Positions 16,245 to 63,929 of a stretch of 64,000 nt of DNA are shown piece by piece (the first letter of the stretch is position 1; each line of letters starts with the position of its first letter). Source of the DNA: Actinomycetospora corticicola. GTDB taxonomy: Bacteria; Actinomycetota; Actinomycetes; Mycobacteriales; Pseudonocardiaceae. A program made the position numbers and the translations under genes. The notes below the pieces were generated by a model. It ran no database searches, was not told the origin of the DNA, and saw only the letters and a list, made by a program, of their open reading frames with translations. The stretch spans positions 4,402,001 to 4,466,000 of the forward strand of contig NZ_JACCBN010000001.1 in NCBI RefSeq assembly GCF_013409505.1, read 5' to 3'.

Positions 16245-16688
16245 ATGACCCCGGGCCACGGCGAGCTGTCGGTCGGGGAGGTCGCGCAGCGCAGCGGGGT
16301 CGCGGTGTCGGCCCTGCACTTCTACGAGCGCGAGGGCCTCATCTCGAGCCGCCGCACCGCCGGCAACCAGCGCCGGTTCCGCCGCGACGTGCTGCGCCGG
16401 ATCGCCTTCATCCGGATCGCCCAGCGCGTGGGCGTCCCGCTGGCGCAGGTCCGGGCGGCCCTCGACGAGCTCCCCGACGCCCGCACCCCGACCCGCGCCG
16501 ACTGGGAGCGGCTCTCCGCGTCCTGGCGGGCCGAGCTCGACGAGCGCATCCGCAGCCTCGAACAGCTCCGGGACGACTTCTCGGGGTGCATCGGGTGCGG
16601 GTGCCTGTCGATCGACCGGTGCCAGCTGGTGAACCCGGGCGACACGTTGGGGGCGGCGGGTCCGGGGGCGCGTGTGCTCCGCAGGTGA
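16245..16688 (+). CDS. soxR: SoxR, redox-sensing MerR-family regulator
   Basis: SoxR senses redox-cycling compounds or their products through a [2Fe-2S] cluster and activates defence genes. The 147-residue protein has the MerR helix-turn-helix ([36 protein letters not shown], residues 8-43), a dimerisation helix, and the cluster motif with Cys115, Cys118, Cys120 and Cys126 ([12 protein letters not shown]). Length and spacing match the family. The stop codon lies in a hairpin shared with the convergent gene. In actinobacteria SoxR targets are often small oxidoreductases or transporters. None is obviously adjacent here, except possibly soxR itself. Confidence 0.96.
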
Positions 16689-16728
16689 GCACTAACGGTC
16701 GCTATCGCGACCCTTTCTGCTCACCTGC
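16681..16728. terminator. Hairpin shared by the convergent 3' ends of soxR and the BtuF-like gene
   Basis: The outer arms GCAGGTGAGCA and TGCTCACCTGC pair perfectly, and an inner stem GGTCGC/GCGACC closes a four-base loop. The soxR stop (16686-16688) is in the left arm and the end of the leftward gene runs through the structure. A bidirectional terminator is likely. Confidence 0.7.
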
Positions 16729-17585
16729 GCGCAGCGCACCTCCTCCGGCGCCGGGACCACAGCCGGGTGCAGCGCGTGAGCGAGCGCCTCGATGCCGTCG
16801 ACCAGTCGGGGACCGGCCCGCACGACGTAGGCCGCCGAGTCGATCGCGATCACCGGTACGTCGGGGAAGCGGTCGGCGATCGGGCCGGCCTGCGCCACGG
16901 CGGCCGCGAGGTCGTAACCGCACGGGGTGACCACCACCGCGTCCGGGGACTCGAGGTCCTCCCAGGCCACCGCGCGGCTGCGCCCGCCGTCCACCCCCGC
17001 CGTCGGGACGGCACCGGCGCGGCGGACGAGCTCGGGCACCCAGTGCCCCGGCAGGAACGGCGGGTCGGTCCACTCGAGGACGAGGGCGCGGGGACGGTCG
17101 ACGTCCGCCAGCGCGGTGTCGAGCCCGGTCAGGCGTCGACGCAGGTCGGAGAGCATCGGGGACGCGTCGGCGTCGATCGCGGCGGCGATCCCGCCGATGC
17201 CGGTGAGGACCTCGTCGAGGGTGTGCGGGTCGAAGGAGTGGACGGCGACGTCGGGCAGGCCGAGCTCGTCGAGCGCCTCCGCCACGGTGTGGCCGGGGAG
17301 GGCGCAGACCCCGCAGAGGTCCTGGGTGAGAACGACGTCGGGCGCGGCCGCCCGGAGCGCCTCGCGGTCGAGGTCGTACATCGGCAGCCCGGCAGCGGCA
17401 CGCTCGCGGACGGTGCGGTCGATCTCGCCCGGCGTCATCCCGGGCTCCAGGGCGGAGCGGACGACGACGGGTGCGGCCAGGCCGGGCGGGTGGTCGCACT
17501 CGAAGGTGATCGCGACGAGGTCGTCGGCCCGCCCGAGGGCGGCCACGATCTCGGTGGTGGCGGGCAGCAACGAGGCGATCCGCAT
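16692..17585 (-). CDS. BtuF-like cobalamin/metal-complex binding protein without a signal peptide
   Basis: The 297-residue protein has the fold of periplasmic binding proteins for cobalamin and iron complexes: MRIASLLPATTEIVAALGRADDLVAIT at the N terminus, VLTQDLCGVCALPG in the middle, LVLEWTDPPFLPGHWVPELV, and VVTPCGYDLAAAV. It lacks a signal peptide or lipobox, and no permease or ATPase genes are adjacent. It belongs to the cytoplasmic, stand-alone cobalamin-binding-protein group, whose physiological role is not settled. The last residues (VSRKGRDSDR) are encoded inside the terminator hairpin. Confidence 0.85.
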   Translation of the reverse strand: MRIASLLPATTEIVAALGRADDLVAITFECDHPPGLAAPVVVRSALEPGMTPGEIDRTVRERAAAGLPMYDLDREALRAAAPDVVLTQDLCGVCALPGHTVAEALDELGLPDVAVHSFDPHTLDEVLTGIGGIAAAIDADASPMLSDLRRRLTGLDTALADVDRPRALVLEWTDPPFLPGHWVPELVRRAGAVPTAGVDGGRSRAVAWEDLESPDAVVVTPCGYDLAAAVAQAGPIADRFPDVPVIAIDSAAYVVRAGPRLVDGIEALAHALHPAVVPAPEEVRCAQVSRKGRDSDR

Positions 17586-19447: not shown

Positions 19448-20635
19448 TCAGAACGGCAACGACAGGGCCGCGGCCAGCAGCTCGTCCATCACACGTTCCT
19501 CGTCCACGGCCCGGCCGCGTTCGGTCATCACATCGTGCAGCTCCGGGTCCCAGGGCGTCGACGGCACCGCGCCCTCGAACCGACGCAGCTCCGGCCTCAC
19601 CGCGGCGCGGTAGTCGGCAGCGGTCATCCGCCAGGGCACGACGCCGAGCTGCGCCAGTCGGGCCGTGATCGCGACGCCGGCCGGGTCGAGGTCGCCGTGG
19701 TGCCGCACCTCCGCGCCGGCGGCGAGCAGGCCGCGGATGAGCGTCAGGGGTGCGGTGGTCGGGTTGCCGACGGTGCACAGCATCGGGATCGGCAGCGCGC
19801 GTTGCACGGCCGCCTCGAGCAGACGGGGGTTCTCGACGCTCACGACGACGGTTCCCCGCGGAACGTCGACGGTCAGCTCGCGCAGGGTCAGCGTCGACAG
19901 GTAGCTCGGTGCCCCGGCGGTCGTGGCCGCGCGCGTGGCGGCCGCCGCACCGTCCCCGAGCAGCGGCAACGACCAGGTCGGGACCGGTGTCGCGACCAGG
20001 TCACCGGGCAGGCCCGCGTCCGCCCACAGCTGCGCGTCGTCCCAGTGCCCGTCCTCCGCCCGCAGGGCCAGGGCCGTCCCGACGAGCCGCCGCGCGGGCT
20101 CGCCGCGGTCGAGGGCGTGCGCGTTCCCCAGCTCGCGGGCGGCGGTCTCCGCACGGCTGCGCACCCCCGGCTCGGCGGCCACCGCGAGCACCCGCGCGAC
20201 GGTGTCGACGGCGCCCCGCGCCGCCCCGTCGTCGGGAAGGCCGGAGCGGACCGCGTCGATCCAGGCGACGACCCACGGCTCCAGGCCGAACGCCTCGGTG
20301 GCGGCGGCCGTGAGCACCTCGTCGCGGCGGGAGCGCCGGTCGCGGTCGGCGTCCCGGGCCTCGCGGCGACCGGTGGGCGGGCAGCCGGCGGCGGTGAGCA
20401 GGGCGGGCAGGTCGGTGCCGAGGCGGCCGAGCGCCCGGTCGAGCTGCCCGAGCTCCAGACGGCGGGTCGAGCGGCCCGGCACCAGCTTCCGCAGCTGGTC
20501 GCGGGCGCGGGGTGCGAGCCCGTCGGGCAGCGGGACCCAGCCACGGTCGTCGAGTCCACGCCGGTCGAGGGCCGACGAGACCTGCTGCCACAGCGGGAGG
20601 AACTCGGGTTGGAGCAGCACCGGCGGGACGGTCAC
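19448..20635 (-). CDS. jetD: JetD, Wadjet defence topoisomerase-like nuclease subunit (DUF2399/TIGR02679 type)
   Basis: JetD is the nuclease subunit of Wadjet, which cleaves closed-circular plasmid DNA after the JetABC motor has extruded loops. The 395-residue protein has a variable helical N terminus with basic segments (RARDQLRKLVPGRSTRRLEL). The C-terminal TOPRIM-type domain has Glu in VVVSVENPRLLEAAV and the acidic pair in EVRHHGDLDPAGVAITARL. LCTVGNPTTAPLTLIRGL lies between them. These are the expected metal-binding residues, so the enzyme looks intact. GTG at 20635 has a good ribosome-binding site (GAGGAGG). It is last in the operon, separated from jetB by 78 bases that hold a repeat. 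Confidence 0.9.
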   Translation of the reverse strand: MTVPPVLLQPEFLPLWQQVSSALDRRGLDDRGWVPLPDGLAPRARDQLRKLVPGRSTRRLELGQLDRALGRLGTDLPALLTAAGCPPTGRREARDADRDRRSRRDEVLTAAATEAFGLEPWVVAWIDAVRSGLPDDGAARGAVDTVARVLAVAAEPGVRSRAETAARELGNAHALDRGEPARRLVGTALALRAEDGHWDDAQLWADAGLPGDLVATPVPTWSLPLLGDGAAAATRAATTAGAPSYLSTLTLRELTVDVPRGTVVVSVENPRLLEAAVQRALPIPMLCTVGNPTTAPLTLIRGLLAAGAEVRHHGDLDPAGVAITARLAQLGVVPWRMTAADYRAAVRPELRRFEGAVPSTPWDPELHDVMTERGRAVDEERVMDELLAAALSLPF

Positions 20636-20660
20636 GACGGCCTCCTCGACGACGACGATG

Positions 20661-20706
20661 TGGCTTTCCTGCCACTGGGTGACAGCAACGACGCTTTCCT
20701 GCCACG
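20661..20706. repeat. Short repeat family B, copy between jetB and jetD
   Basis: An element of about 46 bp carries two direct copies of GGCAGGAAAGC (read on the minus strand) flanking CGTCGTTGCTGTCACCCA. The same core occurs at 44192, 50127 and 63580, and in degenerate form at 29563. It fills most of the jetB-jetD gap. Confidence 0.75.
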
Positions 20707-20713
20707 AAAAGGG

Positions 20714-21874
20714 CTACAGCAACGTCGGCTGCTCCTCGACGTCCTCGCCCTCGACGACGGTCACCTCCGGGGTGTACCGCGCAGCGGGCGGCAGGACCCG
20801 CACCGCGCCGTCGTCCTCCACCACCACGAGCCGCACCGAGACGAGCAGCGCGAGGACGTCGGCGGCGAAGCGGTCGCGGTCGGCGAGCGCCGCCTTCGAC
20901 CAGTACCGGCCGTGCTCCGCGACCAGCTCGTCGAGCACCTCGCGCACCGACGCCCAGGGGATCGCGTCCGGGTCGTCCGCCGGCCGGAACTGGAAGACCA
21001 ACTCGCTGACCAGCAGCAACGCCGCGTGGGGCAGGGTCCCGCCGGTCGGGAAGGCGACGTCGGAGCACCCGCCGTCGACGTCGAGGGCCGCGAACCCCTC
21101 GGCCCGCGCCTCGAGCACGAGCCCGGTCCGGGCCTCGATCCGCCGGCCCTCGTCCCCGGCGCGGCGGCGCAGTTCGGCGAAGCGGGCGGGGTCGAGGTCG
21201 GTCGCGAGCACGGCCGGGTCCTCGACGAGCCGCCGCCGCACCGCCGTCGCCGCGGACCCGCGCTCGCGGGCCCGCCCGACCAGCTCGTCCGGCGTCTCCG
21301 CGCCCACGACCGCGCCGGTCGGCAGCAGCGCCATCCGGTCCTGACGCACCTCGAGCAGCGCGTCGGCGTCCGCGTCGTGCTCGTAGACGGCCACGCCACG
21401 GTCCAGTTCGCGGAGCATCCCCTGCGCGATCAGCCACCGCAGCGCCGTCACCAGTGCCCGCCGGGACGCCGCGTCGGTGTCCAGCACGACTCCAGCCTCG
21501 GCCGCCGCGGAGTGCACCGCGTTGACGAGATCGCGCAGGCTCGTCCGGTCCGGCCCGGAGGTCGTCGCGGCGAGGACCAGCGCCAACGCCGTGTACTCGG
21601 CCGAGGTGAACGGCCGCGGCGTGGCGGAGACGGTCCGCAACGGCCGGTCGGCGGGGACGTGCCCGGTCTTCACCAGCCGGGCGGTGTCCGCCGTGACCAC
21701 CAGCCGGTAGTTCAGCTCCTGGGTGAACCACGCGTCGAGTGCGTCGGCATGACGGCGGATCGATGCGACGAGATCCGGGTCGGTCTCGGTGGTGCGCCAC
21801 GGCCGGGCGAGCAGGGCCCGCGTGGCCGCGACGAGCTCGCCGTCGCGCTGCGGGTCGGTCGCGGGCGCGCTCAC
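20714..21874 (-). CDS. jetB: JetB, Wadjet kleisin-associated subunit (DUF2398/TIGR02678 type)
   Basis: This is the KITE-like partner expected to bind the kleisin JetA and the SMC-like JetC in the loop-extruding motor. The 386-residue protein carries TIGR02678-type blocks: ATRALLARPWRTTETDPDLV, YRLVVTADTARLVKT, TSAEYTALALVLAATTSG, ALVTALRWLIAQGMLRELD and LVSELVFQFRP. It ends in LLVSVRLVVVEDDGAVRVLP. Winged-helix content is likely. GTG at 21874 is chosen because the upstream in-frame extension to 21925 translates repeat A (21890-21940) and is not protein-like. The gap to jetA is 79 bases. Confidence 0.88.
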   Translation of the reverse strand: MSAPATDPQRDGELVAATRALLARPWRTTETDPDLVASIRRHADALDAWFTQELNYRLVVTADTARLVKTGHVPADRPLRTVSATPRPFTSAEYTALALVLAATTSGPDRTSLRDLVNAVHSAAAEAGVVLDTDAASRRALVTALRWLIAQGMLRELDRGVAVYEHDADADALLEVRQDRMALLPTGAVVGAETPDELVGRARERGSAATAVRRRLVEDPAVLATDLDPARFAELRRRAGDEGRRIEARTGLVLEARAEGFAALDVDGGCSDVAFPTGGTLPHAALLLVSELVFQFRPADDPDAIPWASVREVLDELVAEHGRYWSKAALADRDRFAADVLALLVSVRLVVVEDDGAVRVLPPAARYTPEVTVVEGEDVEEQPTLL

Positions 21875-21889
21875 GGGGCGCCCCGTTCC

Positions 21890-21940
21890 GGGCGAGCGGC
21901 ACTGTCGCGCACATCGATGCTGCAAGAGTGCCGTTCGTTC
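21890..21940. repeat. 51-bp palindromic element, family A, copy in the jetA-jetB gap
   Basis: Arms GAGCGGCACT and AGTGCCGTTC are inverted around a core containing GATGCTGC. The same 51-bp length recurs at 24535-24585 (inside jetC) and 41021-41071. A fourth copy runs off the window at 63954-64000. Confidence 0.85.
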
Positions 21941-21953
21941 ACGTCGGACGAGC

Positions 21954-23423
21954 TCACGGCGCCGCCTCCACCGTCAGGGCCAGCCCCTCCACCCGCAACG
22001 CACCTGCATGGGTGGGCACGCTCGTCGTCGTACCGGGCTCGCGCCGCACCTCGCAGCGCACGCCGTCGAGGACGATGCTTCCCGACGACGAGGCCGGGCC
22101 CAGGTCCGCTACGGCGCGGGTGAGCACCTTCTGGAGCTCCCGCAGTGCGGGCTCCGAGAGCCGGGCGGTGAACCCGGCCGCGCCGACCTCGAGGAGCTCC
22201 GCCCGGGCGGCCGCGGCCCGCTTCTCGACCTCAGCCTTCCGCGCGAGCAGGTGCCGCCGCTCCTGCGTGCGGTCCTGCACCCGGGAGGTGCGGCCCCGGC
22301 TCGTCGTGTCCCCGCGCTCGCGCAGCGACACCGGGATCGTCGCGACCGGCGCGTCCCACCACGACACGCCCGCGTCGACCGGGTCGGTGTCGTCACCGCC
22401 CGCGCCGCCGAGGTGGCGCGCGCCGTAGAGCCCGAACGCCGCCGCGGCGAGCTCGTGCGCCCGTGGCGCCGGGGCGTGCGCGAAGAAGCCCGCGAGCCGC
22501 AGGAAGTCCACCCGCCGTGACGACCCCGCCGTCCCGGTCCGGGAGAGCCGCGTGAGGTTCTGGGTGAGGGTCCGGACGGCGTCGACCGCGTCCCGCTCCA
22601 GCGTCTGGACGCGGCTCGGGCGCCCCGGCGTCGAGACGAACCACGACGCCAGGTTCTCCCAGTCGGCGACGGCCGCCCCGGGCGCGCGGCGCACCCGCAC
22701 GGTCGACAGGCCGGCGGCGGCCACCCGGGCGGCGAGGCCGTCCGCCGCGCGTTCCACCAGGGTCCCGACGACGGGTGCGAGCTCGGTGAGCAGGACGGCG
22801 ATCGGGCGGGCCGCGCGGTGCAGGGTCTCCAGCCGTTCGCCGACGTAGCCGACGAGCACCTCGGAGAAGAACGCGAACTCGTCCTCGTCGAGGTCGAAGC
22901 GCGACTGCCACTGGTTGATCGCGGCGAAGAACTGGGTGATCTCTGCGGAGAAGGCGACGTGCGGGTCGAACACCGCCCGCACGGCGGCGGCGAGCCGGTC
23001 CGGCGGAGCGGTGGCCGCGTCGAGCCCGCCCAGCTCCTCCAGGGCGGCGCGCAGCTGGTCGAGCCGTCCGAGCGACACGTCGCGCACGTCGTCGACCTGG
23101 GCGAGCACGCCCTCGACGAGGTCGTGCACCTCCTGCCCGACCCGGGTGATCAGGAAGCGGTCGCGCCGCCGGTAGTAGTCCTCGACCGTGCCGACCTGCC
23201 CGACCGAGGCCGACACCTCGAGGTTGCCCCAGACCCGGAGCTGGTCGAGCCGGATCTTGACGGTGGGCTCGTCCAGCTCGTGCCCGGCCTCCGCGAGCCG
23301 CGCGGTGACCTCCCCGGGGGTCAGCTCCGCGAAGAAGGTCCCCGCGAAGACCCCGAGGATCCAGCGGTAGTCCGGCGACTCGGTGACGTAGGAGAAGACG
23401 ACCGGTCGGATCGTCGAGCTCAT
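21954..23423 (-). CDS. jetA: JetA, Wadjet kleisin-like subunit (DUF2397/TIGR02677 type)
   Basis: JetA is the kleisin that links the heads of the JetC dimer. The 489-residue protein begins RPVVFSYVTESPDYRWILGV and continues VKIRLDQLRVWGNLEVS, EDYYRRRDRFLITRVGQEVHDLV, and DAVDAVRTLTQNLTRLSR. These are strong matches to the TIGR02677 pattern. The C-terminal half has a helical region rich in Arg and Glu, then a beta-rich end. ATG at 23423 overlaps the jetC stop (ATGA), so translation is coupled and 1:1 or ratio-controlled synthesis is likely. In the arrangement I know for this class jetA comes first; here it follows jetC. Confidence 0.9.
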   Translation of the reverse strand: MSSTIRPVVFSYVTESPDYRWILGVFAGTFFAELTPGEVTARLAEAGHELDEPTVKIRLDQLRVWGNLEVSASVGQVGTVEDYYRRRDRFLITRVGQEVHDLVEGVLAQVDDVRDVSLGRLDQLRAALEELGGLDAATAPPDRLAAAVRAVFDPHVAFSAEITQFFAAINQWQSRFDLDEDEFAFFSEVLVGYVGERLETLHRAARPIAVLLTELAPVVGTLVERAADGLAARVAAAGLSTVRVRRAPGAAVADWENLASWFVSTPGRPSRVQTLERDAVDAVRTLTQNLTRLSRTGTAGSSRRVDFLRLAGFFAHAPAPRAHELAAAAFGLYGARHLGGAGGDDTDPVDAGVSWWDAPVATIPVSLRERGDTTSRGRTSRVQDRTQERRHLLARKAEVEKRAAAARAELLEVGAAGFTARLSEPALRELQKVLTRAVADLGPASSSGSIVLDGVRCEVRREPGTTTSVPTHAGALRVEGLALTVEAAP

Positions 23424-26400
23424 GCGCCCCGGCCCAGGGTCGAGCTCCGCTCCGCTGCGTCTCCCACCGACAGTTCCGACCCGTTCCAGCGGTAGTGCAC
23501 CAGCGCGATCGCGCGCAGCTCCGGGTCGCGCAGCACCTCGGTGATCGCGAGCTCCGGGACGCTCGGGTGCGTCCCCCAGAGCCGTTCCGAGGTGACCACG
23601 AAGTCCACGTCGAGGTCGACGAGCAACCCGAACAGCTTCGCGTGGTTGTCCTCGGAGACCTTCGCGAACGCGTCGTCGAGCAGCACGAGCCGCGGCGCCC
23701 CGACCCCGTGCGGGTCGTGCGCCGCGGCGCTGGCGGCGGCCGCGCTCGCCATCGGCAGGACGGTGACCAGCTTCTTCTCGCCCTCGGACAGCGTGGTCCG
23801 CCGCGTCAGCAGCTCGTCGTTGCGCCCCGGTCGGCGCAGGTAGATCCGCATCTCGTGCCACGTCCGGTAGTCCAGGACGTCGCCGATCACCGAGCGGTAC
23901 GACGCCTCCGGGTCGGCCGTCCGGGCCTGCTCGACGAGGCTCTTCACCGCCTCGCGGACCTGGTCGTCCTCCTCCGGCGAGCGCAGGTCGGGGTGCTTGC
24001 CGAGCAACGCCAGGGCGGTGGCCGTCTCGCTCTCCAGGTCGCCGCGCGGGCGCCACTGCAGCCGCACGCCGATGCCCTGGCTGGAGGTGACGCCACGCAG
24101 GATCCGGTTCATCCGGTCGACGAGCTCGCCGGCCGCGAACAGCGCGTCCGCCACCTCGCGGGCGATCCGGCCGTGCAGCAGGTTGCGCAGCGCCTGGTCC
24201 TGCTGGGCCGACAGCAGGCTCGTGGCCCGGCGCCGCTGGACCGCGACCCGGTGCACCATCTGCGCCAGCACCGCACGGGTCGGGCCGGTGACGTGGACGG
24301 CGAGCGGCGTGCCGTCGGCGCCGCGCCGGGACTCGATGTCCCACCCCGACGCCAGGTGGTCCCGCGTCTCGCGCAGCGCCTTCTCCAGGGCATCCTCGGT
24401 CACCTGACGGCGGGGCGCCGCGAGCCGGGCACGCAGCGCGTCGACCAGTTCCGCGGCGCCCTCGACGGTGTCCGGGGTGACGGGGATCGGCTCCTCGGAC
24501 CAGTCCGTACCGCCGTCCGCCACATCCCCGTCCTGAGCGAGCGGCCCGTTCGCAGCATCTCTGTGAGCGACAGTGCCGTTCGCTCGGTCCGGGGTGTCGC
24601 GTTCCGCCGCGGCCAGCAGCCCCGGCACCTCGAGCGCGTCGACCAGGCGGGCCCGGCCCCCGACGGCCGCCTTCTCCCGCTCGACCAGCGTCTCGCGGGC
24701 CGCCTCCACGCGGAGCTCCGCCTCCCGGACGGCGACGGTCGCGGTCGTCTGCTCCTCGCGGGCCGCGTCGAGCCGGACGGCGGTCTCCCGCAGGTGCGTG
24801 TCCAGCTCCGAGACGCGGGCGGCGACCTTGGCGGGCTCCTCGCCCAGCGCGGACTCGGCGGTCTCCAGCTCGGTGCGCACGGCGGCCGCGTGGCCGGCGG
24901 CGACCCGGTGGTCGGCCACCGCCGCGGCCAGGTCGGCCACCTCGCGGTCCCACCCCGCGATCGCCTCGCGCCACGACCGCACGCTGCGCCGCGTGCGCTC
25001 CACGGCGGAGTCGACGGCGGCGAGGGCCCGCTCGGCGTCGGTGACCGCCTCCAGCAGGACCTCGAGCCGCTCGGGATCGGTCGACAGCCCGGACTCGGCC
25101 GCCTCCTGCTGCAGGCGCGCGACGAGGTCGTCGGCCCGACGACGGGTGTCCGCGGCCGCCGCGGTCCGCTCGGCCGCCCGCCCCTGCGCCTCCTGCGCAT
25201 AGCGGGTGGCGCCGGTCGCCGCGACCACCGCGTCGTCGACGGTGCGGGTCCCGGGGAGCTCGCGGACCAGCCGGCGCAGCGCGTCGGCGTGCTCCTCGAG
25301 GGCGGCCGCGACGGCCCGTACGGCCGACAGGCGGGCCTCGGCGTCCGCCACCAGCGCGGCGAGCTCCGCCAGCCGACGGGCGCGCGCCTGTGCCCGCGCT
25401 CCGGCCCCGACGTACTCGGCGGCCGGCTTGGTGTGCCGGCCGCGCAGCGGGCCCGCCCCGAACGAGCCGTCCTCGCCGACCCAGAGGGCGTCACCGGGCG
25501 TCGTCCCGACGGCGGCGAGCACACCGGCCACGACGTCGACCGGCACCGTCCCGGTGTCCACCGGCACCAGCCGGGGCCCCGCCCCGGCCGCCGCCGGACC
25601 TGCCGCACCTGTCGTCAGGAACAGCTCGCCGTCCGCACCGAGCACGCGGCCGTCGGCCTCGACACGGGCCGCGAGCAGCCCGGACGCTTCCAGCGCCGCC
25701 TCGAGGCCCGCCCGGCCCGCGTCGTCGAGATCGTCGGCGAAGTCGACCAGCGAGGCGAACAGGGCGGCGTCCTCGACGCCGGTGTCGGTGCGCCACGGCT
25801 CACGGGGCAGCGGGAGCTCGCCCGCCGCCTCGACCCGGGCGTGCTCGGCGCGCAGGGCGGTCAGCTCGTCGTCGGCCTCCCCGACGCGGGCCGTGGCCCG
25901 GCTGCGGGCCGCGGAAAGCGCCCCGGAGGCCTCGTCCGCGACGCGCCGCACGGCGCCGACCAGGCTCTCGGCGCGGGCGCGCAGGTCGTCGCCGGGCTCG
26001 GCGTCGTCGGGACCCGACGACAGGGCCAGCCAGCCCGCGGCGCCGTCCGGCTCGGCCGCGGGGACCGCCGCGACGTGGGCGACGAGCCGCTCGTGCCAGG
26101 TGCCGACCGCCGCTGCGTGCTCGTCGGCGGCCACCCGAGCGGCACGACGCGCGACGTCGGCCTGCTCGGCGGCCTCCGCGGCGCGCTCGGCCGCCTCGGC
26201 GGCCTCGGTGTCGGCACGGTCGGCGGCCGCCGTCTCGCGGTCCGCCGCTGCAGCGCGTTCCCGCAGCTCGCGCACGGTGGCCCGGTGGGCGCGCAGCCCG
26301 TCGGCCACCGCGACGAGCGCCGGTGGCAGGTCGTCGACGGGGTCGAGGTCGTCCTCCGGGACGTCCACCGCGGTGCTGCTCGCGGCGTCGTCGCGCGGCT

Positions 26401-27610
26401 CGGTGACCAGGACGGGCGGGTCGGGGAGGCGGACCGGCGCGGAGGCGGTGCGGGCGGCCGTCGTCACGCCGCGGAGGTGCTCGGCGATCCCGGCGAGGTC
26501 GGACTCCACCTGGCCCTTCGCCGCCGTCGCGCCGGCGGCGGCGGTAGTCACGCGGGCCAGGGCACGGGTGCGGACACCCTCGAGCGTGCCGGCCGCCTCG
26601 TCGGCGCGGGCCAGTTCGTCCCGACGACGGACGAGGTCGGCGTGCGCGGAGTACTCCGGCAGGCTCACCAGACCCTGCCGCTCGGCCGTCGCTCGAGCGT
26701 GCTCGTCGACCAGGTCGCCGACCGCCCGGACGGCGTCGTCGCGCGCGGTCCCCGCCCGTTGCGCGGCGGCCCGGTCGCGCTCCACGCGCCTGCCAGCGGT
26801 GCGGGCGGCGTCGACGGCCGAGGCCGCGCCCTCCACCGTCGTCATGAGCACCCGGCGGGCGTAGTCGGTGTAGACCTCGACGACGCCGTCGAGCGCCGCG
26901 GCCGTCGCCGCGAGGTCGGTGACGTTGCGACGGTGGTCCTCGAGGTCCTCGAGCGGCTGGGCGGCGTCGTTCACCGCGTCCTCGGGCACCGGCGGCAGGG
27001 CCTCGCGGAGGGTGCGCGGGAGGTCGGTGTCGATCCGGTCGCCGACCCGGGGGTTGCGCACCTGGTGCAGCAGCCGGAAGTACGCCGTCGGGTCGGTGCC
27101 GCCGAAGAAGCGGCGGGCGATCTCGGCGCGGTACTCCGCGGTGGAGGTGAACACCTGGCCCCGCACCCCGAGCTCGGCCCGCAGCGCGTCGGCCGAGAAC
27201 GGGACGTCGGCCTCGGTGAGCCGGAAGTCCAGCCGGGCCCGGCGGTCGGTGGAGAACCACCAGGTGGTGACGCGGTCGGTGGACCGGTTGGCGCGGATCC
27301 CGCAGCCGACGGTGCGGTACTCGCCGTCGCGCACGAACTCGATCCACAGGTAGCCGGTGCGCTGCGTGTCGTCGTTGTCGGAGAGCATCCAGGAGCGCAG
27401 CACCCCGCGCTGCTCGCCCGCCGCGTCGATCTTGCGGACGTCGGCCTCGAGCAGGAACGGCAGCAGCATGTTCATCGCCGTCGACTTGCCCGAGCCGTTC
27501 ACCCCGCGCAGCAGCAGCCGGCCGCCACCGAACTCCAGCACCTCGTCCTGGTACTGGTAGACGTTCAGGATCCCGGCGCGCGACGGTTGCCAGCGGGCGG
27601 GGGAATCCAC
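23420..27610 (-). CDS. jetC: JetC, Wadjet SMC/MukB-like ATPase (TIGR02680 type)
   Basis: JetC is the motor ATPase that extrudes plasmid DNA in Wadjet. The 1396-residue protein has an N-terminal head half with Walker A GVNGSGKS at residues 36-43. Long Ala/Arg/Glu coiled coils, a hinge-like region near residues 600-740 (LFLTTGAAG, ALWVGEDGSFG) and a second coiled coil follow. The C-terminal head has signature TTLSEGEKKLVTVLP near 1273 and Walker B APRLVLLDDAFAKVSEDNHA near 1307. All ATPase motifs look intact. Residues 1009-1026 (RANGTVAHRDAANGPLAQ) are the translation of a 51-bp repeat. The GTG start at 27610 lacks a clear ribosome-binding site and leads the operon. Confidence 0.93.
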   Translation of the reverse strand: MDSPARWQPSRAGILNVYQYQDEVLEFGGGRLLLRGVNGSGKSTAMNMLLPFLLEADVRKIDAAGEQRGVLRSWMLSDNDDTQRTGYLWIEFVRDGEYRTVGCGIRANRSTDRVTTWWFSTDRRARLDFRLTEADVPFSADALRAELGVRGQVFTSTAEYRAEIARRFFGGTDPTAYFRLLHQVRNPRVGDRIDTDLPRTLREALPPVPEDAVNDAAQPLEDLEDHRRNVTDLAATAAALDGVVEVYTDYARRVLMTTVEGAASAVDAARTAGRRVERDRAAAQRAGTARDDAVRAVGDLVDEHARATAERQGLVSLPEYSAHADLVRRRDELARADEAAGTLEGVRTRALARVTTAAAGATAAKGQVESDLAGIAEHLRGVTTAARTASAPVRLPDPPVLVTEPRDDAASSTAVDVPEDDLDPVDDLPPALVAVADGLRAHRATVRELRERAAAADRETAAADRADTEAAEAAERAAEAAEQADVARRAARVAADEHAAAVGTWHERLVAHVAAVPAAEPDGAAGWLALSSGPDDAEPGDDLRARAESLVGAVRRVADEASGALSAARSRATARVGEADDELTALRAEHARVEAAGELPLPREPWRTDTGVEDAALFASLVDFADDLDDAGRAGLEAALEASGLLAARVEADGRVLGADGELFLTTGAAGPAAAGAGPRLVPVDTGTVPVDVVAGVLAAVGTTPGDALWVGEDGSFGAGPLRGRHTKPAAEYVGAGARAQARARRLAELAALVADAEARLSAVRAVAAALEEHADALRRLVRELPGTRTVDDAVVAATGATRYAQEAQGRAAERTAAAADTRRRADDLVARLQQEAAESGLSTDPERLEVLLEAVTDAERALAAVDSAVERTRRSVRSWREAIAGWDREVADLAAAVADHRVAAGHAAAVRTELETAESALGEEPAKVAARVSELDTHLRETAVRLDAAREEQTTATVAVREAELRVEAARETLVEREKAAVGGRARLVDALEVPGLLAAAERDTPDRANGTVAHRDAANGPLAQDGDVADGGTDWSEEPIPVTPDTVEGAAELVDALRARLAAPRRQVTEDALEKALRETRDHLASGWDIESRRGADGTPLAVHVTGPTRAVLAQMVHRVAVQRRRATSLLSAQQDQALRNLLHGRIAREVADALFAAGELVDRMNRILRGVTSSQGIGVRLQWRPRGDLESETATALALLGKHPDLRSPEEDDQVREAVKSLVEQARTADPEASYRSVIGDVLDYRTWHEMRIYLRRPGRNDELLTRRTTLSEGEKKLVTVLPMASAAAASAAAHDPHGVGAPRLVLLDDAFAKVSEDNHAKLFGLLVDLDVDFVVTSERLWGTHPSVPELAITEVLRDPELRAIALVHYRWNGSELSVGDAAERSSTLGRGA
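24535..24585. repeat. 51-bp palindromic element, family A, inside jetC
   Basis: This copy has the same length as the intergenic copies and arms GAGCGAGCGGCC and CAGTGCCGTTCGCTC around GCAGCATCT. It is open in the jetC frame and adds 17 codons between the second coiled coil and the C-terminal ATPase head. Confidence 0.85.
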
Positions 27611-27704
27611 CCGGAGGAGGGTACGGAACCCGGGATCCCGCCCCGACGGCGGCGGACGGGCCCCCGGGCCCCGGGTCCGCCCGTGCGGCGGCGATCATGA
27701 CGGG

Positions 27705-28436
27705 GTGCTGGTCGTCCTCCCTCCGTCCGAGACCAAGGCGTCCGGGGGCCGCGGCGCACCGCTCGACCTCGACGCGCTGTCCTTCCCGGCGCTGACCGCG
27801 ACCCGGGCCGAGCTCGTCGACGCCGTCGTCGCCCTCGCCGACGACGTGCCCGCCTCGCGGTCGGCGCTCGGGGTCAGTGAGCGTCAGGACGACGAGATCG
27901 AGCGCAACGCCGCCCTGTGGACCTCCCGGACGGCGCCGGCCCTCGCCCGGTACACCGGCGTCCTCTACGACGCGCTCGACGCCCGGTCCCTGACGCCGGG
28001 CGCCAAGGGGCGGATCGCGGTCTGCTCCGCGCTGTTCGGGCTGGTGATGGGCACCGACCGAATCCCCGCCTACCGGCTCTCGGCCGACTCCGCACTGCCC
28101 GGGTACGGCGGCCTGCGGACCGTCTGGCGGCCGGTGCTCGGCCCCGTCCTCGCCGACCTCGGCGAGCACGTCGTCGACCTGCGCTCCGGCGGCTACATGG
28201 CCCTCGCCCCGGCGACCGGTGCGACGACGCTGGACGTGGTCTCGGAGGCCGAGGACGGGTCGCGCAGCACGGTCAGCCACGCCAACAAGTCGTTCAAGGG
28301 CCGCGCCGCGCGCCTGCTCGCCTCGACCCGCCGTCGCCCGAAGGACACCGGCGGCGTCCTCGCGGTCCTCGCCGACGCCGGGCTGCGCGTGGAGCAGTCC
28401 GACGAGACGTCGCTGGTGCTGGTCGTCCCGCGCTGA
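27705..28436 (+). CDS. yaaA: YaaA family peroxide-stress protein
   Basis: YaaA proteins bind DNA and limit iron-dependent oxidative damage. The 243-residue protein shows MLVVLPPSETK, AALWTSRTAPALARYTGVLYDAL, VCSALFGLVMGTDRIPAYRLS, VDLRSGGYMAL and the C-terminal HANKSFKGRAARLLA, all typical of the family. The start is GTG at 27705. It is divergent from the Jet operon with about 95 bases between the starts. There is nothing to suggest it is part of the Wadjet system. Confidence 0.93.
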   Translation: MLVVLPPSETKASGGRGAPLDLDALSFPALTATRAELVDAVVALADDVPASRSALGVSERQDDEIERNAALWTSRTAPALARYTGVLYDALDARSLTPGAKGRIAVCSALFGLVMGTDRIPAYRLSADSALPGYGGLRTVWRPVLGPVLADLGEHVVDLRSGGYMALAPATGATTLDVVSEAEDGSRSTVSHANKSFKGRAARLLASTRRRPKDTGGVLAVLADAGLRVEQSDETSLVLVVPR

Positions 28437-38692: not shown

Positions 38693-39769
38693 GTGGCTCA
38701 CGAACCCCCCGCTCCCGTCGGGCGCCGGGTGGCCGAGGAGGAGCGCCGTGCCGTGGGCTCCGGGGCGAGCCTGGACGACGTGGCGCGGCTCGCCGGGGTC
38801 TCCGCGTCCACCGCCTCGCGCGCGCTCAACAACCACCCGCAGGTCGCCGCGGCCACCCGCGAGCGCGTGCTCACGGCCGCGGCCGGCCTGGACTACGTCG
38901 TCTCCCCGGAGGCGTCCCGCCTGGCGGGCGGGGCGTCCCGCACGCGCGTCGCGGTGGTCGTGCCGCACCTGTCGCGCTGGTTCTTCGGGCGGCTGCTCGA
39001 GGGGCTGGAGGCCGGGCTGCGGGAGGGCGGCGACACGGCCGTCGACGTGCTGCTCTTCCTCGTCGGGGACGTCGCCGGGCGGCGCGCCTTCTTCGAGCAC
39101 CTCCCGGCCCGACGACGGGTGGACGCCGCCGTCGTCGTCGGCTTCGAGGTCGACGAGGCCGAGCGGGCGCGCCTCGAGCTCCTCGGGGTGCACATCGTCT
39201 CGGCCGGCGGGCCGCGCGAGCCGTTCCCGTCGGTCACCGTCGACGACCACCGGGCCGGGCGGCAGGCCGTGGACCACCTCGTGCATCTCGGACACCGCCG
39301 GATCGGCCTGCTCGCCTCGCAGGACCCCGACGACCGGGGCCCCGACCTGCGGACCGCGGCCTACCGGGACGCGCTCGCCGACGCGGGACTCGACGTCGAC
39401 GACGAGCTCGTGGTCCGCGTCCCCTTCGGCGGACCCGGCGGGGCGGACGGGATGGGGCGCCTCCTCGGCCTGCGGCACCCGCCGACCGCCGTGTTCGCCT
39501 CCGCCGACGAGATCGCCGCCGGCGCGGTGCGCACGCTGCGCCGGGCCGGGTTGCGGGTGGGCGGCGAGATCTCGGTGATCGGTGTCGACGACCATCCGGT
39601 GGCCGAGATGCTGGACCTCACCACCGTCGCGCAGCCCGTCCACGAGCAGGGTGTGGTCGCCGGACGGATGGTCCGGGCGCTGCTGGAGCCGGGCGGCCCG
39701 GTACCCGTCGCCTCGCAGGTCCTGCCCACGCACCTCGTCCTGCGCGGCACCACCGGACCGCCCCCGTGA
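38693..39769 (+). CDS. LacI-family transcriptional regulator
   Basis: The 358-residue repressor has the helix-turn-helix and hinge (SLDDVARLAGVSASTASRAL and RERVLTAAAGLDYVVSPEASR) after an N-terminal extension of about 30 residues. The sugar-binding domain follows (VAVVVPHLSRWFFGRLLEGL, DHLVHLGHRRIGLLAS, PTAVFASADEIAAGAVRTLR, ISVIGVDDHPVAEMLDLTTV). GTG at 38693 is chosen, as upstream codons cross the operators. It probably controls the divergent transporter operon, itself and the GH13 gene, all of which have the same operator. Confidence 0.93.
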   Translation: MAHEPPAPVGRRVAEEERRAVGSGASLDDVARLAGVSASTASRALNNHPQVAAATRERVLTAAAGLDYVVSPEASRLAGGASRTRVAVVVPHLSRWFFGRLLEGLEAGLREGGDTAVDVLLFLVGDVAGRRAFFEHLPARRRVDAAVVVGFEVDEAERARLELLGVHIVSAGGPREPFPSVTVDDHRAGRQAVDHLVHLGHRRIGLLASQDPDDRGPDLRTAAYRDALADAGLDVDDELVVRVPFGGPGGADGMGRLLGLRHPPTAVFASADEIAAGAVRTLRRAGLRVGGEISVIGVDDHPVAEMLDLTTVAQPVHEQGVVAGRMVRALLEPGGPVPVASQVLPTHLVLRGTTGPPP

Positions 39770-41022
39770 GCGCCCCCGAACTGCGGCTGCGGTCGCCGTC
39801 GGTCGCGCTGCTCAACCTCCCCTGGGACGTGCCGCTGGAGTCCTGGGACCCCGCGACGGTGCCGCTGCGGACGCTCGACGTCGGACCCAGCCGACACCTG
39901 GTGCGCTTCGTCGTCGCCGACGGGGTGCTCTGGGCGCTCAAGGAGCTCCCGGTCCGGCTGGCCGGCAAGGAGTACGAGGCCCTGCGGCGGATGGAGACGA
40001 TGGGCCTGCCGACCGTCCGGGCGGCCGGCCTCGTCGTCCGGTCGGTGCCGGAGGACTCCGCGGTCCTGGTGACCCGGTTCCTCACCGGGTCCTGGCAGTA
40101 CCGGCGCCTGTTCGCGCGGCTGCCCCCGGACCGCGCCGCGCACCGCGCCCGGCTGCTCGACGCCATGGCGGGGCTGCTGGTCGAGCTGCACCGCCACGGG
40201 GTGTTCTGGGGCGACTGCTCGCTCGCCAACACGCTGTTCACCCGCGACGGGCAGGCCCTGCAGGCCCACCTCGTCGACGCCGAGACGGCCGAGAGCCACC
40301 CCTCGCTCTCCGACGGGCAGCGGCAGATGGACCTCGACATCCTCGTGGAGAACGTGGCCGCCGGGCTGATCGACGTGGCGGCGTCCCTCGGCCGACCGCC
40401 GGACATCGAGCCGCGTCTCATCGCAGAGGCACTGAGCGTCCCCGCGCGCTACCAGGCGCTGTGGGACGCGCTGACCGCCGAGCCGCGCTTCGCCTTCTCC
40501 GACCGCTACCGGGTCGAGTCCCGGGTGCGGGACCTGGAGGAGCTGGGCTTCGTCGTCGACGAGGTCTCGCTCGTCCCGGACGGCGAGGCGGTGCGCCTGC
40601 GGGTCGGCGTCGGGGACCGCCGCTTCCACGCGCAGCGGCTGCGCGAGCTGACCGGGCTCGACGTCGGGGAGGGCCAGGCCCGCGAGCTCCTCGGCGACCT
40701 GCAGGCCCACCGGGGCGCGCTGTCCCGGACCTCGGGCCGCGCGGTGTCCGAGGACGAGGCCGCGCCGAGCTGGCTGCACGACGTCCTGACGCCGGGGATG
40801 CGCCGCGCGCACGCCGCCGTCGGCCACGTCGGGACGGCGGTGCAGGCGTACTGCGACCTGCTCGAGGTGCGCTGGCTGCTCTCCGAGGCCGCCGGGCACG
40901 ACGTCGGGACCGACGCCGCCCTGCAGGCGCTCGCCGAGAAGGCGCCGACCGACTCCGCCGCCCGGGCCCTCGTCGCCGACACGCGCTCGGACCTACCGGT
41001 GGTCGGCTCCGACCCGGACTGA
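39766..41022 (+). CDS. DUF4032 protein with kinase-like N-terminal domain
   Basis: The 418-residue soluble protein has an N-terminal domain resembling lipopolysaccharide-type kinases: LWALKELPVRLAGKEYEALR carries the candidate Lys, HRHGVFWGDCSLANTLF the catalytic-loop Asp and Asn, and LQAHLVDAETAE the metal-binding Asp. DUF4032 forms the C-terminal part. Family members are widespread in actinobacteria with unknown substrate. GTG at 39766 overlaps the regulator stop, so it is made with the LacI regulator and may act in the same sugar pathway. The stop codon shares bases with repeat A at 41021. Confidence 0.85.
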   Translation: MSAPELRLRSPSVALLNLPWDVPLESWDPATVPLRTLDVGPSRHLVRFVVADGVLWALKELPVRLAGKEYEALRRMETMGLPTVRAAGLVVRSVPEDSAVLVTRFLTGSWQYRRLFARLPPDRAAHRARLLDAMAGLLVELHRHGVFWGDCSLANTLFTRDGQALQAHLVDAETAESHPSLSDGQRQMDLDILVENVAAGLIDVAASLGRPPDIEPRLIAEALSVPARYQALWDALTAEPRFAFSDRYRVESRVRDLEELGFVVDEVSLVPDGEAVRLRVGVGDRRFHAQRLRELTGLDVGEGQARELLGDLQAHRGALSRTSGRAVSEDEAAPSWLHDVLTPGMRRAHAAVGHVGTAVQAYCDLLEVRWLLSEAAGHDVGTDAALQALAEKAPTDSAARALVADTRSDLPVVGSDPD

Positions 41023-41071
41023 ACGAACGGCACGCTCGCGCGCCCAGATGCTGCGAACGTGCCGCTCGTTC
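41021..41071. repeat. 51-bp palindromic element, family A, after the DUF4032 gene
   Basis: Arms GAACGAACGGCAC and GTGCCGCTCGTTC are inverted around CAGATGCTGC. It starts within the DUF4032 stop codon and lies between convergent genes, so it can also act as a terminator hairpin. Its length equals the copies at 21890 and 24535. Confidence 0.88.
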
Positions 41072-41092: not shown

Positions 41093-42730
41093 CTAGTGCG
41101 CGGCGAGCCAGACGGCCGTGTCGGGCGGGAGCCGCCGACCGTCGAGCGGGCCGCTCGCGAGCAGCACGCCGTCGTGGTCGGGCAGGTCGACCGTCTCCGC
41201 CGACAGGTTCACGACGGCGAGGAAGGCCGGTGATCGTCGGAACGCAAGGACCGCGTCGCCCGGGGCCGACACCCAGTCCAGGTCGCCCTCGCCCAGGGCG
41301 GGGTGACGACGACGGATCGCGAGGGCCGCGCGGGCGAGTTCGAGGAACGAGCCGTCGACCCCCTCCTCGACCGAGGCCGCGTAGTCGGCGAACCAGCCGG
41401 GCTGGGGCAGCCAGGGGGACGCCCCGCCGTCGGGACCGAAGCCGAAGCTCGACCCGGTGGGCGTCCAGGGGATCGGCACCCGGCAGCCGTCGCGGCCGCG
41501 CTCGGTGTGACCCGAGCGCTCCCAGGTCGGGTCCTGCAGGGCCGCCTCGGGGATGTCGTCGACCTGCGGCAGCCCGAGCTCCTGGCCCTGGTAGACGTAC
41601 ATGCCGCCGGGCAGCGCGGTGTAGAGCAGGAACGCCGCGCGGGCGCGCCGGACACCGAGCTCGACGTCCACCGGGTCGGCCTCGTCGAACGTGGCGTTGC
41701 CGTGCCGCTCGACGGTCGGGCGGCCGTAGCGGCTCGGGGCGCGGACCACGTCGTGGTTCTCGAGCACCCAGGTCGCGGGCGCCCCCACCGCACCGAGGAA
41801 CCGGGTGCTGGTGTCGATCGTCCCGCGCAGCGCGGCCGGGTCCCACGGGGCGACGAGGTAGTCGAAGTTGAACGCCGTGTGCAGCCGGCCGGCCCCGACG
41901 TAGCGGGCCAGCCGCTCCGGGCCCGGCGTCCACGCCTCGGCGACGAACATCCGGGCGCCGTCGTAGGAGTCGGCGATCCGGCGCCAGGACTCGTAGATCG
42001 CGAGGACGCCGTCGCGGTCGACGTACGGGTGCTCGCCGGGGCCGGTGGTGAAGCCGACGAAGTCGGTCGCGTCCGCGAGGTCGGGCAGGGCCGGGTCCTT
42101 GACCAGGCCGTGCGCGACGTCGATGCGGAAGCCGTCCACCCCGCGGTCGAACCAGAAGCGCAGCACGGACTCGAACTCGGCGTGGACCTCGGGGTTGTCC
42201 CAGTTCACGTCCGGCTGCCCGGGGTCGAACAGGTGCAGGTACCACTGCCCGTCGTCGACCCGGGTCCACGCCGGCCCACCGAAGTGCGAGAGCCAGTTGT
42301 TCGGCGGCTCGGCACCGTCGGGCCCCCGACCCTCGCGGAACACGAACCGGCTCCGCGCCGCCGACCCCCGGCCGGCCGCCAGGGCCTCGACGAACCACGC
42401 GTGGTGGTCGGAGAGATGGTTGGGGACGATGTCCGGGACGATCCGCAGCCCGTGCTCGTGGGCCTCGGCGATCAGCTTCTCCGCGTCGGCGACCGTGCCG
42501 TAGGCGGGCTCGGTGGTCCGGTAGTCGGCGACGTCGTAGCCGGCGTCGACCTGCGGCGAGGCGTACCAGGGGTTGATCCACAGCGCGTCGACCCCGAGGT
42601 CGCGCAGGTAGGGCAGCCGGTCGCGGAGGCCGGCGAGATCCCCGATCCCGTCGCCGTCGCCGTCGGCGAAGCTGCGGATGTAGACCTGGTAGATGACGGC
42701 GTCGCGCCACCAGAGTGCATCGGTCGTCAC
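41093..42730 (-). CDS. GH13 alpha-glucosidase / oligo-1,6-glucosidase
   Basis: This cytoplasmic glycoside hydrolase would cleave the imported alpha-glucoside to glucose. The 545-residue protein has the GH13 barrel start WWRDAVIYQVYIRSFADGDG, IVPDIVPNHLSDHHAWF and the nucleophile Asp in GVDGFRIDVAHGL near residue 202. The acid/base Glu is in MFVAEAWTPG near 262, and the stabilising Asp is in WVLENHDVVRAPSRYG near 325. The C-terminal beta domain is short. GTG at 42730 gives VTTDALWW; an alternative GTG is at 42736. A perfect LacI-type operator sits 36 bases upstream, which links it to the transporter regulon. Confidence 0.95.
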   Translation of the reverse strand: MTTDALWWRDAVIYQVYIRSFADGDGDGIGDLAGLRDRLPYLRDLGVDALWINPWYASPQVDAGYDVADYRTTEPAYGTVADAEKLIAEAHEHGLRIVPDIVPNHLSDHHAWFVEALAAGRGSAARSRFVFREGRGPDGAEPPNNWLSHFGGPAWTRVDDGQWYLHLFDPGQPDVNWDNPEVHAEFESVLRFWFDRGVDGFRIDVAHGLVKDPALPDLADATDFVGFTTGPGEHPYVDRDGVLAIYESWRRIADSYDGARMFVAEAWTPGPERLARYVGAGRLHTAFNFDYLVAPWDPAALRGTIDTSTRFLGAVGAPATWVLENHDVVRAPSRYGRPTVERHGNATFDEADPVDVELGVRRARAAFLLYTALPGGMYVYQGQELGLPQVDDIPEAALQDPTWERSGHTERGRDGCRVPIPWTPTGSSFGFGPDGGASPWLPQPGWFADYAASVEEGVDGSFLELARAALAIRRRHPALGEGDLDWVSAPGDAVLAFRRSPAFLAVVNLSAETVDLPDHDGVLLASGPLDGRRLPPDTAVWLAAH

Positions 42731-48586: not shown

Positions 48587-48605
48587 GCAGGTGCGCTCCG
48601 CGCCC

Positions 48606-48645
48606 GTGAGTACTTCTCCGTGTCCTGGCACGGAGAAGTACTCAC
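48606..48645. terminator. Perfect 17-base hairpin between co-directional genes
   Basis: Arms GTGAGTACTTCTCCGTG and CACGGAGAAGTACTCAC pair perfectly around TCCTGG. It lies 19 bases after the lipoprotein stop and 28 bases before the next start, so it would separate the transcripts. No poly-T follows, as is usual in high-GC actinobacteria. Confidence 0.8.
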
Positions 48646-48673
48646 AGGCCGGAGGCACCTAGGGTCTCGGGAC

Positions 48674-50110: not shown

Positions 50111-50126
50111 GCCCCCACCCATGACA

Positions 50127-50171
50127 GGGAAGCGTCGTTGCTGTCGCTCGGTGACAGCAACGACGCTTCCC
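50127..50171. repeat. Short repeat family B, palindromic copy
   Basis: Arms GGGAAGCGTCGTTGCTGTC and GACAGCAACGACGCTTCCC are a perfect 19-base inverted repeat around a seven-base loop. The arm sequence is the family B core, so this looks like two cores in opposite orientation. Confidence 0.85.
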
Positions 50172-50190
50172 CGCCACGACCCCCGGACGA

Positions 50191-50237
50191 CCGGAGGGCC
50201 CCCTCGCTCGAGTGGATCGAGCGAGGGGGCCCTCCGG
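50191..50237. terminator. Perfect 21-base hairpin, bidirectional terminator
   Basis: Arms beginning CCGGAGGGCCCCCTCG and ending GGGCCCTCCGG pair perfectly over 21 bases around the loop GTGGA. It lies between the convergent 3' ends of the dehydrogenase (50110) and GH6 (50260) genes. Confidence 0.88.
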
Positions 50238-50259
50238 CCGGGACGGGGTGGACCCGTCG

Positions 50260-63835: not shown

Positions 63836-63870
63836 GGCGAGGGCGCGCACCCTCCGGATCACCGGCCGGC

Positions 63871-63929
63871 GCGAGGTTCACAACAAGCAGGTCTGCGGGC
63901 CGTCGGACATGCCTCACGTGAACCTCGCG
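63871..63929. repeat. Palindromic repeat family C, copy 4
   Basis: Ends GCGAGGTTCAC and GTGAACCTCGC form a perfect 11-base inverted repeat. It shares GCCTCACGTGAACCTCGC with copy 1 at 43391. Confidence 0.75.

Follow-up and report, generated by a model that had tools for sequence, protein, structure and literature searches.

Small palindromes dispersed through bacterial genomes have been described under several names, and the 51-bp palindrome considered here has something in common with each. Rickettsia palindromic elements, as summarised in PMC10969869, are about 150 bp long and lie in genes in nearly half of the cases. The Actinomycetospora repeat resembles them as a small palindrome copied in frame into unrelated genes (jetC, a tsaB-tsaC-like fusion and a ROK regulator), each of which has relatives that do not carry it. 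Unlike them, it measures 48–53 bp, a third of their size, lies in a gene at only one of 85 places in the genome analysed, has its main seat behind stop codons and belongs to a different phylum, the likeness being one of description alone. REP and BIME sequences, in the sections of PMC2817692 and PMC12306157 that we compared, are likewise high-copy extragenic palindromes near gene ends, with paired changes and species-specific variants, and the repeat fits most of the general REP definition in the latter source: 84 of the 85 places lie outside coding sequence, and the family has a common consensus with a stem. The REP length of 14–40 nt given there is an E. coli example; here the unit is 51 bp with a 13-bp loop. 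In contrast to REPs associated with RAYT (PMC2817692, same sections), no Y1 transposase match accompanies the repeat in any of 18 genomes of the genus, and its consensus ends in GAACGAA/TTCGTTC, with no GT(A/G)G head in the consensus of the flanks. SPRITE, the pneumococcal Rho-independent terminator-like element (PMC10969869), consists of dispersed terminator-like hairpins behind genes, and the terminators described as bidirectional or I-shaped in GC-rich bacteria (PMC8269248) are also hairpins behind genes, as here; coding copies and frequent core inversion, both seen here, are absent from the descriptions of these two that we compared. Lastly, template switching between the arms of inverted repeats is described as inverting spacers and homogenising arms (PMC8604942, PMC8794818, in the parts compared). 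Those cases come from yeast, microRNA and rRNA genes, with one loop inversion in actinobacterial rRNA; compensatory arm changes and an inverted loop recur here in one dispersed bacterial repeat, where 17 of the 59 pairs of orthologous copies show inversion.

The window, by which we mean the whole stretch of 64,000 nucleotides analysed, is G000:C1:4402001-4466000, where G000 is an Actinomycetospora genome in a single contig of 6.17 Mb. It holds four copies of the repeat, which we call family A, two of them in or beside the genes of a Wadjet operon:

19448–20635, minus strand: jetD (PADLOC JetD2, E = 4.1e-78)
20714–21874, minus strand: jetB (PADLOC JetB2, E = 1.1e-93)
21890–21940, plus strand: family A palindrome in the jetA/jetB gap
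21954–23423, minus strand: jetA (PADLOC JetA2, E = 1.5e-153)
23420–27610, minus strand: jetC (Wadjet, MukB-like; PADLOC)
24535–24585, minus strand: family A palindrome of 51 bp within jetC, in frame, residues about 1009–1026
41021–41071, plus strand: family A palindrome in a convergent gap; the TGA stop of the upstream gene, 39766–41022, is completed by its first bases
63954–64004, minus strand: family A palindrome at the window end, its last 4 bp beyond the window; G001 has no family A copy there

The first-pass annotation of this window had reported four palindromes with a common length, common arms and a GCAGCAT core. All four are present, each with two 19-bp arms around an asymmetric 13-bp core containing GCAGCAT/ATGCTGC, and the jetC copy is in frame and stop-free, as had been stated. 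A 37-base pattern with up to three mismatches found 56 places in the genome against none for its reversed control, which excludes chance as the origin of the family. A covariance model made from nine copies, all of 51 bp, gave 149 matches, equivalent to at least 85 distinct places (best E = 2.5e-18), a number from which weak copies are missing because scoring was limited to 150 of the 2644 candidates of the first look. The dispersed family that the annotation anticipated is borne out, with a length that is nearly fixed: among 83 places measured, 80 are 51 bp long and the others 52, 42 and 41 bp, and the two weakest of the 85 measure 51 and 49 bp, the first being a poor match. Stem pairs 3, 11, 12, 14, 15 and 19 covary above shuffles (p about 0.003 or less). 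The folding energy of a near-consensus copy is -41.5 kcal/mol in G000 and -40.4 kcal/mol in G016 (z about -11 and -10.5), whereas the three window copies that were folded whole lie at only -24.3 to -30.4 kcal/mol (z -3.1 to -5.0). Outside the 51 bp the flank consensus is still C-rich and G-rich; among 25 flanking pairs, however, just the first exceeds shuffles (p about 0.007), so that the conserved unit of family A measures 51 bp, with no longer paired unit apparent.

An exact pattern of the family occurs in 17 stretches of a contig collection, all from Actinomycetospora sp. NBRC 106378 or A. soli SF1, and matches at E ≤ 0.01 occur in 18 of 18 genomes of the genus and 12 of 43 others, with more than four matches only in G021 and G030 among the latter. 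Species-specific variants occur among the best matches. Within G000, copies are present in all 500-kb bins of the chromosome, none of the 72 copies compared is identical to another, and several, the jetC copy included, are hybrids of an A-type left arm and a B-like right arm. Smaller within-genome distances in the related genomes G001 and G006 led us to consider concerted evolution of family A, but copies there had been picked by score and we set the idea aside. Rfam at gathering thresholds gave nothing in the window, and the titles and abstract openings of a small part of the papers on the genus contained no account of such repeats in Actinomycetospora. Neighbouring copies of similar sequence at G000:C1:3213964 and 3214029 (65 bp apart) and at 4932225 and 4932310 (85 bp apart) look as if a palindrome and its flank had been tandemly duplicated. 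The window also contains further palindromes at 16680–16729, 48602–48649, 50122–50176, 50179–50249 and 63870–63929 (motifs GTGAGCAC, GTGAGTACTTCTCCGTG, CAGCAACGACGC, TCGAGCGAGGGGGCC and GACCTGCCT), which look like more dispersed families; several palindromes of those types, mostly outside genes, lie in the 400-kb stretch used below as background and in the G001 contig C12.

The position of the copies relative to genes is far from random. By our own codon-based gene caller, under which 12 of 83 places overlap the edge of a called gene, 54 places are convergent, 25 tandem, 2 divergent and 2 inside genes. A frame-by-frame test discarded the inside-gene call at 5821100 and left the jetC copy as the sole coding copy among the 85 scored places; the two weakest places are one convergent and one divergent, neither coding. 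The background, a 400-kb stretch with 213 gaps of at least 51 bp, has 36 convergent and 59 divergent gaps. Against it, the 81 intergenic copies show a convergent excess (54 copies, binomial p = 4e-23) and a divergent deficit (2 copies, p = 2e-9), and one coding copy in 83 compares with 87% coding DNA. A general preference of bacterial stem-loops for convergent gaps is reported in the part of PMC1590033 compared. A gene end adjoins 79 of the 81 intergenic copies, at a median of 14 bp from the stop codon and within 30 bp in 67 of the 79; seven copies supply part of the stop codon themselves. The copy at 41021 has this typical seat, with a DUF4032/Kdo-like gene on one side and an alpha-amylase gene on the other. 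(The latter, 41093–42730, matches both Pfam alpha-amylase and PADLOC C3a214 (GlgB), probably without meaning for defence.)

T makes up 0.41 and 0.45 of the last 7 nt of the repeat on its two strands; its share in the window as a whole is 0.126. A transcript of either strand would have a GC-rich stem and, after it, a tail enriched in U right behind a stop codon, the features of a bidirectional terminator except that there is no T run; a simple terminator scan of 20001–28000 did not report the palindromes among its terminators. From the seat, the stem and the U-rich tail, the family A palindrome is most likely a bidirectional intrinsic terminator or 3'-end hairpin.

Taking these observations together with those described below, we consider it probable, with real room for error, that the repeats form a superfamily of dispersed terminator-like hairpins that is copied without target duplication, has its arms and cores rewritten and only rarely enters coding sequence as an in-frame passenger. 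According to this model, the 51-bp palindrome would be one member of an Actinomycetospora superfamily. It would usually sit within 30 bp after a stop codon, for the most part in convergent gaps, and there terminate transcription in both directions. Units of about 48–53 bp would be copied to new sites without target duplication, as we see for two subfamilies, and template switching during replication between the arms would most likely invert the asymmetric core and homogenise the arms, in keeping with the patterns observed. One palindrome type could replace another at the same site. Occasionally the variable linker of a protein gene would receive a copy, and presumably those that break the frame or bring in a stop would be lost; the copies in jetC, tsaB-tsaC and the ROK gene would be such passengers, the jetC copy an old and rewritten one, and the roughly 17 residues added to the protein are apparently tolerated. 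The annotation's picture of an element that enters genes fits in so far as these three genes hold in-frame copies, but with one coding copy in 85 in G000 it does not describe the usual seat, which is behind stops.

The alternative that survives best, although we regard it as unlikely, is a MITE moved in trans by a transposase, with the seat behind genes representing merely harmless insertion space; it corresponds to the small non-autonomous element that the annotation had proposed. Such an element would be expected to give identical units at sites with unrelated flanks, coding copies that keep the frame, as in the three genes, and family A sites empty in G000, as for 2 of 48 G001 copies and 4 of 41 G006 copies. 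However, no target-site duplication was found at the ends of 80 copies relative to shuffles, nor at identical copies in G015; among 36 settings of offset and duplication length, one reached p < 0.05, 7 bp off the element end and in two copies. The transposase family searched, Y1 (PF01797, RAYT), was absent from 18 of 18 genomes of the genus, whereas 5 of 14 control genomes contained it. A 65-base G016 copy had no match at E 1e-5 in phage and plasmid collections. Harmless space would also predict many divergent copies, since divergent gaps offer 14295 bp against 7209 bp of convergent ones, and 2 of 81 were observed.

Most compared sites, moreover, are common to sister species, which speaks against the same alternative. 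The G001 contig C12 is collinear, in inverted orientation, to 4.419–4.584 Mb of G000. Four of the six G000 family A copies in that stretch are at the same sites in G001; the site at 4484025 is occupied in G001 by another kind of palindrome, and at 4465954, the window's last copy, the G001 site has no family A copy. Extending this to 48 copies of G001 and 41 of G006, mostly the best-scoring ones, 38 and 21 respectively are orthologous in G000, 2 and 4 are at sites without a copy in G000, 2 and 4 have diverged flanks, and 6 and 12 have no ortholog in the stretches compared. At one of the four G006-only sites, G000 has a shorter, 41-bp member of the family, and two G000 sites are each paired with two G001 copies. 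Mobility, as the annotation suggested it, holds for units copied to unrelated sites and sits poorly with 38 of 48 G001 copies being shared and a jetC copy that is not recent. The jetA-jetB copy, which the annotation had noted as lying only about 2.6 kb from the one in jetC, has its counterpart at the identical G001 site, where the core is inverted, and so gives no evidence of recent mobility.

The jetC copy deserves separate consideration. It falls within a variable linker that precedes the match to SbcC Walker B (residues 1244–1331), has 15 of 19 stem pairs in Watson-Crick form and a fold of -25.6 kcal/mol, and its codons are atypical, with a coding score of -13.7 against +41.7 and +30.1 for its flanks. 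A JetC query matches 15 of 18 genomes of the genus, the three without a match being less than 85% complete. Extra residues are present at one spot of the acidic variable linker in seven of the 15 (G000, G001, G014, G016, G006, G015 and G009) and absent from eight (G010, G005, G011, G017, G002, G008, G004 and G012). (A second, distant JetC-like match with 30% identity lies at G005:C4:259716-261422.) A palindrome is kept there in six of the 15 species, G016 having only a remnant, and its type differs between them: family A in G000 and G001 only, B2 in G006, G014 and G015, and in G009 a B-prime copy, also of 51 bp and in the same frame. All 15 translations keep one frame between the left and right conserved blocks.

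The eight relatives without the residues agree with the insertion that had been proposed for jetC; the proposed size, 51 nt as 17 codons, is not demonstrated. At 450 nt, the G000 segment is 63–72 nt longer than seven non-carriers (378–387 nt) and 36 nt longer than the eighth (414 nt), because the linker itself varies, and the B2 palindrome at this site is 48 bp long. Selection for frame accounts for an in-frame insert as well as a fixed length does. In a tree of the flanking JetC residues the seven carriers form one group (support 0.996), which makes one ancestral entry, followed by changes of palindrome type, likely; alternatively, entry may have been repeated at one permissive spot. Since the G000 copy is common to G001, and the site is occupied in seven grouped species, it is not recent. 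Retention of a palindrome in six of 15 species, with a remnant in a seventh, might be taken to mean that it is kept for a role in jetC, either as a hairpin tuning the Wadjet operon or as a protein spacer. We find this distinctly improbable, given that eight of 15 species do without it, that G016 has only the remnant, that the type changes between species, and that the copies of G000 and G001 show 2 differences in 51 bases, a divergence similar to that of the sequence around them (94% identity).

Copying to unrelated sites is seen in the B2 and B-prime subfamilies. With up to three mismatches, B2 is dispersed over 29 places in G006, and B-prime over 17 places in G015 and 14 in G009. The 48-mer in jetC of G006 is identical at two more places in that genome, a convergent gap and the tsaB-tsaC-like fusion (Pfam TsaD and Sua5_yciO_yrdC), with unrelated flanks, and in G015 a B-prime 47-mer with GGG and CCC extensions occurs in five identical copies, which stand in unrelated flanks with no duplication visible. 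These identical 47- and 48-mers refute, for B-prime and B2, the explanation that the repeats are ordinary terminators which came to be alike through function alone, without copying. For the superfamily as a whole we hold that explanation to be very improbable; matches in all 18 genomes of the genus with species-specific variants, and a site and tail that fit terminators, agree with it, but the 13-bp loop has kept both its sequence and its length, neither of which a terminator needs, and coding copies would not be expected.

Of the eight genomes in which the tsaB-tsaC-like fusion could be aligned, G006 and G014 have an intact B2 palindrome and G016 a degenerate one; G001 and G000 seem to have lost most of it by deletion, and G013, G009 and G015 lack it. 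The ROK regulator, aligned in 16 genomes, has a B-prime palindrome in G009 and G015 and none in the other 14. Its two copies have inverted cores relative to each other and consequently read VHVDA in G009 and VASTG in G015, both arm peptides being kept. At least one arm of the jetC, tsaB-tsaC and ROK copies is read in the frame that gives T/A-N-x, and the exact insertion size cannot be fixed in any of the three genes because their linkers themselves vary. Coding copies are rare in B2 also: none of nine B2 places in G000, and in G006 two of the 18 places, out of 29, for which context was determined (8 picked for likeness to the jetC copy and 10 others). A B2 place at 5234449, the sole open-frame match among 21 places, was rejected on frame scores that are non-coding behind the element (-28.4).

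Inversion of the core is frequent among orthologous copies. It is reversed in 17 of 59 orthologous pairs, 10 of 38 with G001 and 7 of 21 with G006. Over the informative positions of the core, the tally is 174 inverted, 6 direct and 39 neither for flipped pairs, and 15, 439 and 82 for unflipped pairs, counts which describe the flip rather than test it because the pairs were classed by their own core, although they do show that the flips are not marginal. At informative positions of outer-arm asymmetry, 19 are kept and 13 reversed in flipped pairs. Template switching is the most likely mechanism of core inversion in being the most economical. Most flips could instead be replacements by a new copy: pairs in which at most 13 of the 24 bases beside the element match number 12 of 17 among the flipped and 17 of 42 among the unflipped. 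Over the aligned 40-base flanks, flipped and unflipped pairs score alike in G001 (medians 39.2 against 42.8) and less so in G006 (31.0 against 39.5). Because flipped pairs have the poorer immediate flanks, some flips may indeed be such replacements. Three flips, at 957157, 4423890 and 5124128, have near-perfect flanks on both sides, and at 4423890, the jetA-jetB copy, the core is inverted in G001 at the same site with the outer-arm asymmetry kept.

In a bolder reading, terminator palindromes would double as in-frame protein cassettes that are rewritten by core flips, as in the ROK gene, and by family replacement, as in jetC (B2, B-prime and A). We put this forward tentatively, expecting that it could well turn out otherwise. 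If it is true, residue changes would appear clustered in linkers without a frameshift. The family joins three usually separate topics, namely repeats that probably end transcription, elements that enter genes in frame, and hairpin-driven inversion. The many orthologous copies in sequenced species make the rates of core inversion and arm homogenisation directly measurable in a bacterium, and the family offers a clean test of how a palindrome spreads without a known transposase.

A chromosome-organising or protein-binding site (of the parS, KOPS, nucleoid or uptake-sequence type), suggested by a conserved palindrome present in every 500-kb bin, is scarcely credible in view of the strong gene-end preference, core orientations that vary between species at shared sites, and the even distribution of orientations over the chromosome halves (18 plus and 19 minus against 25 plus and 21 minus, p = 0.66, with the origin assumed to be at the contig start).

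One further site is of interest with respect to the exchange of palindromes. A B2 palindrome at G000:C1:4474768 faces a palindrome of an unrelated family at G001:C12:108926, the two being placed at the same site by collinear coordinates alone; the case resembles that at 4484025, as a swap of one terminator-like palindrome for another at one site.
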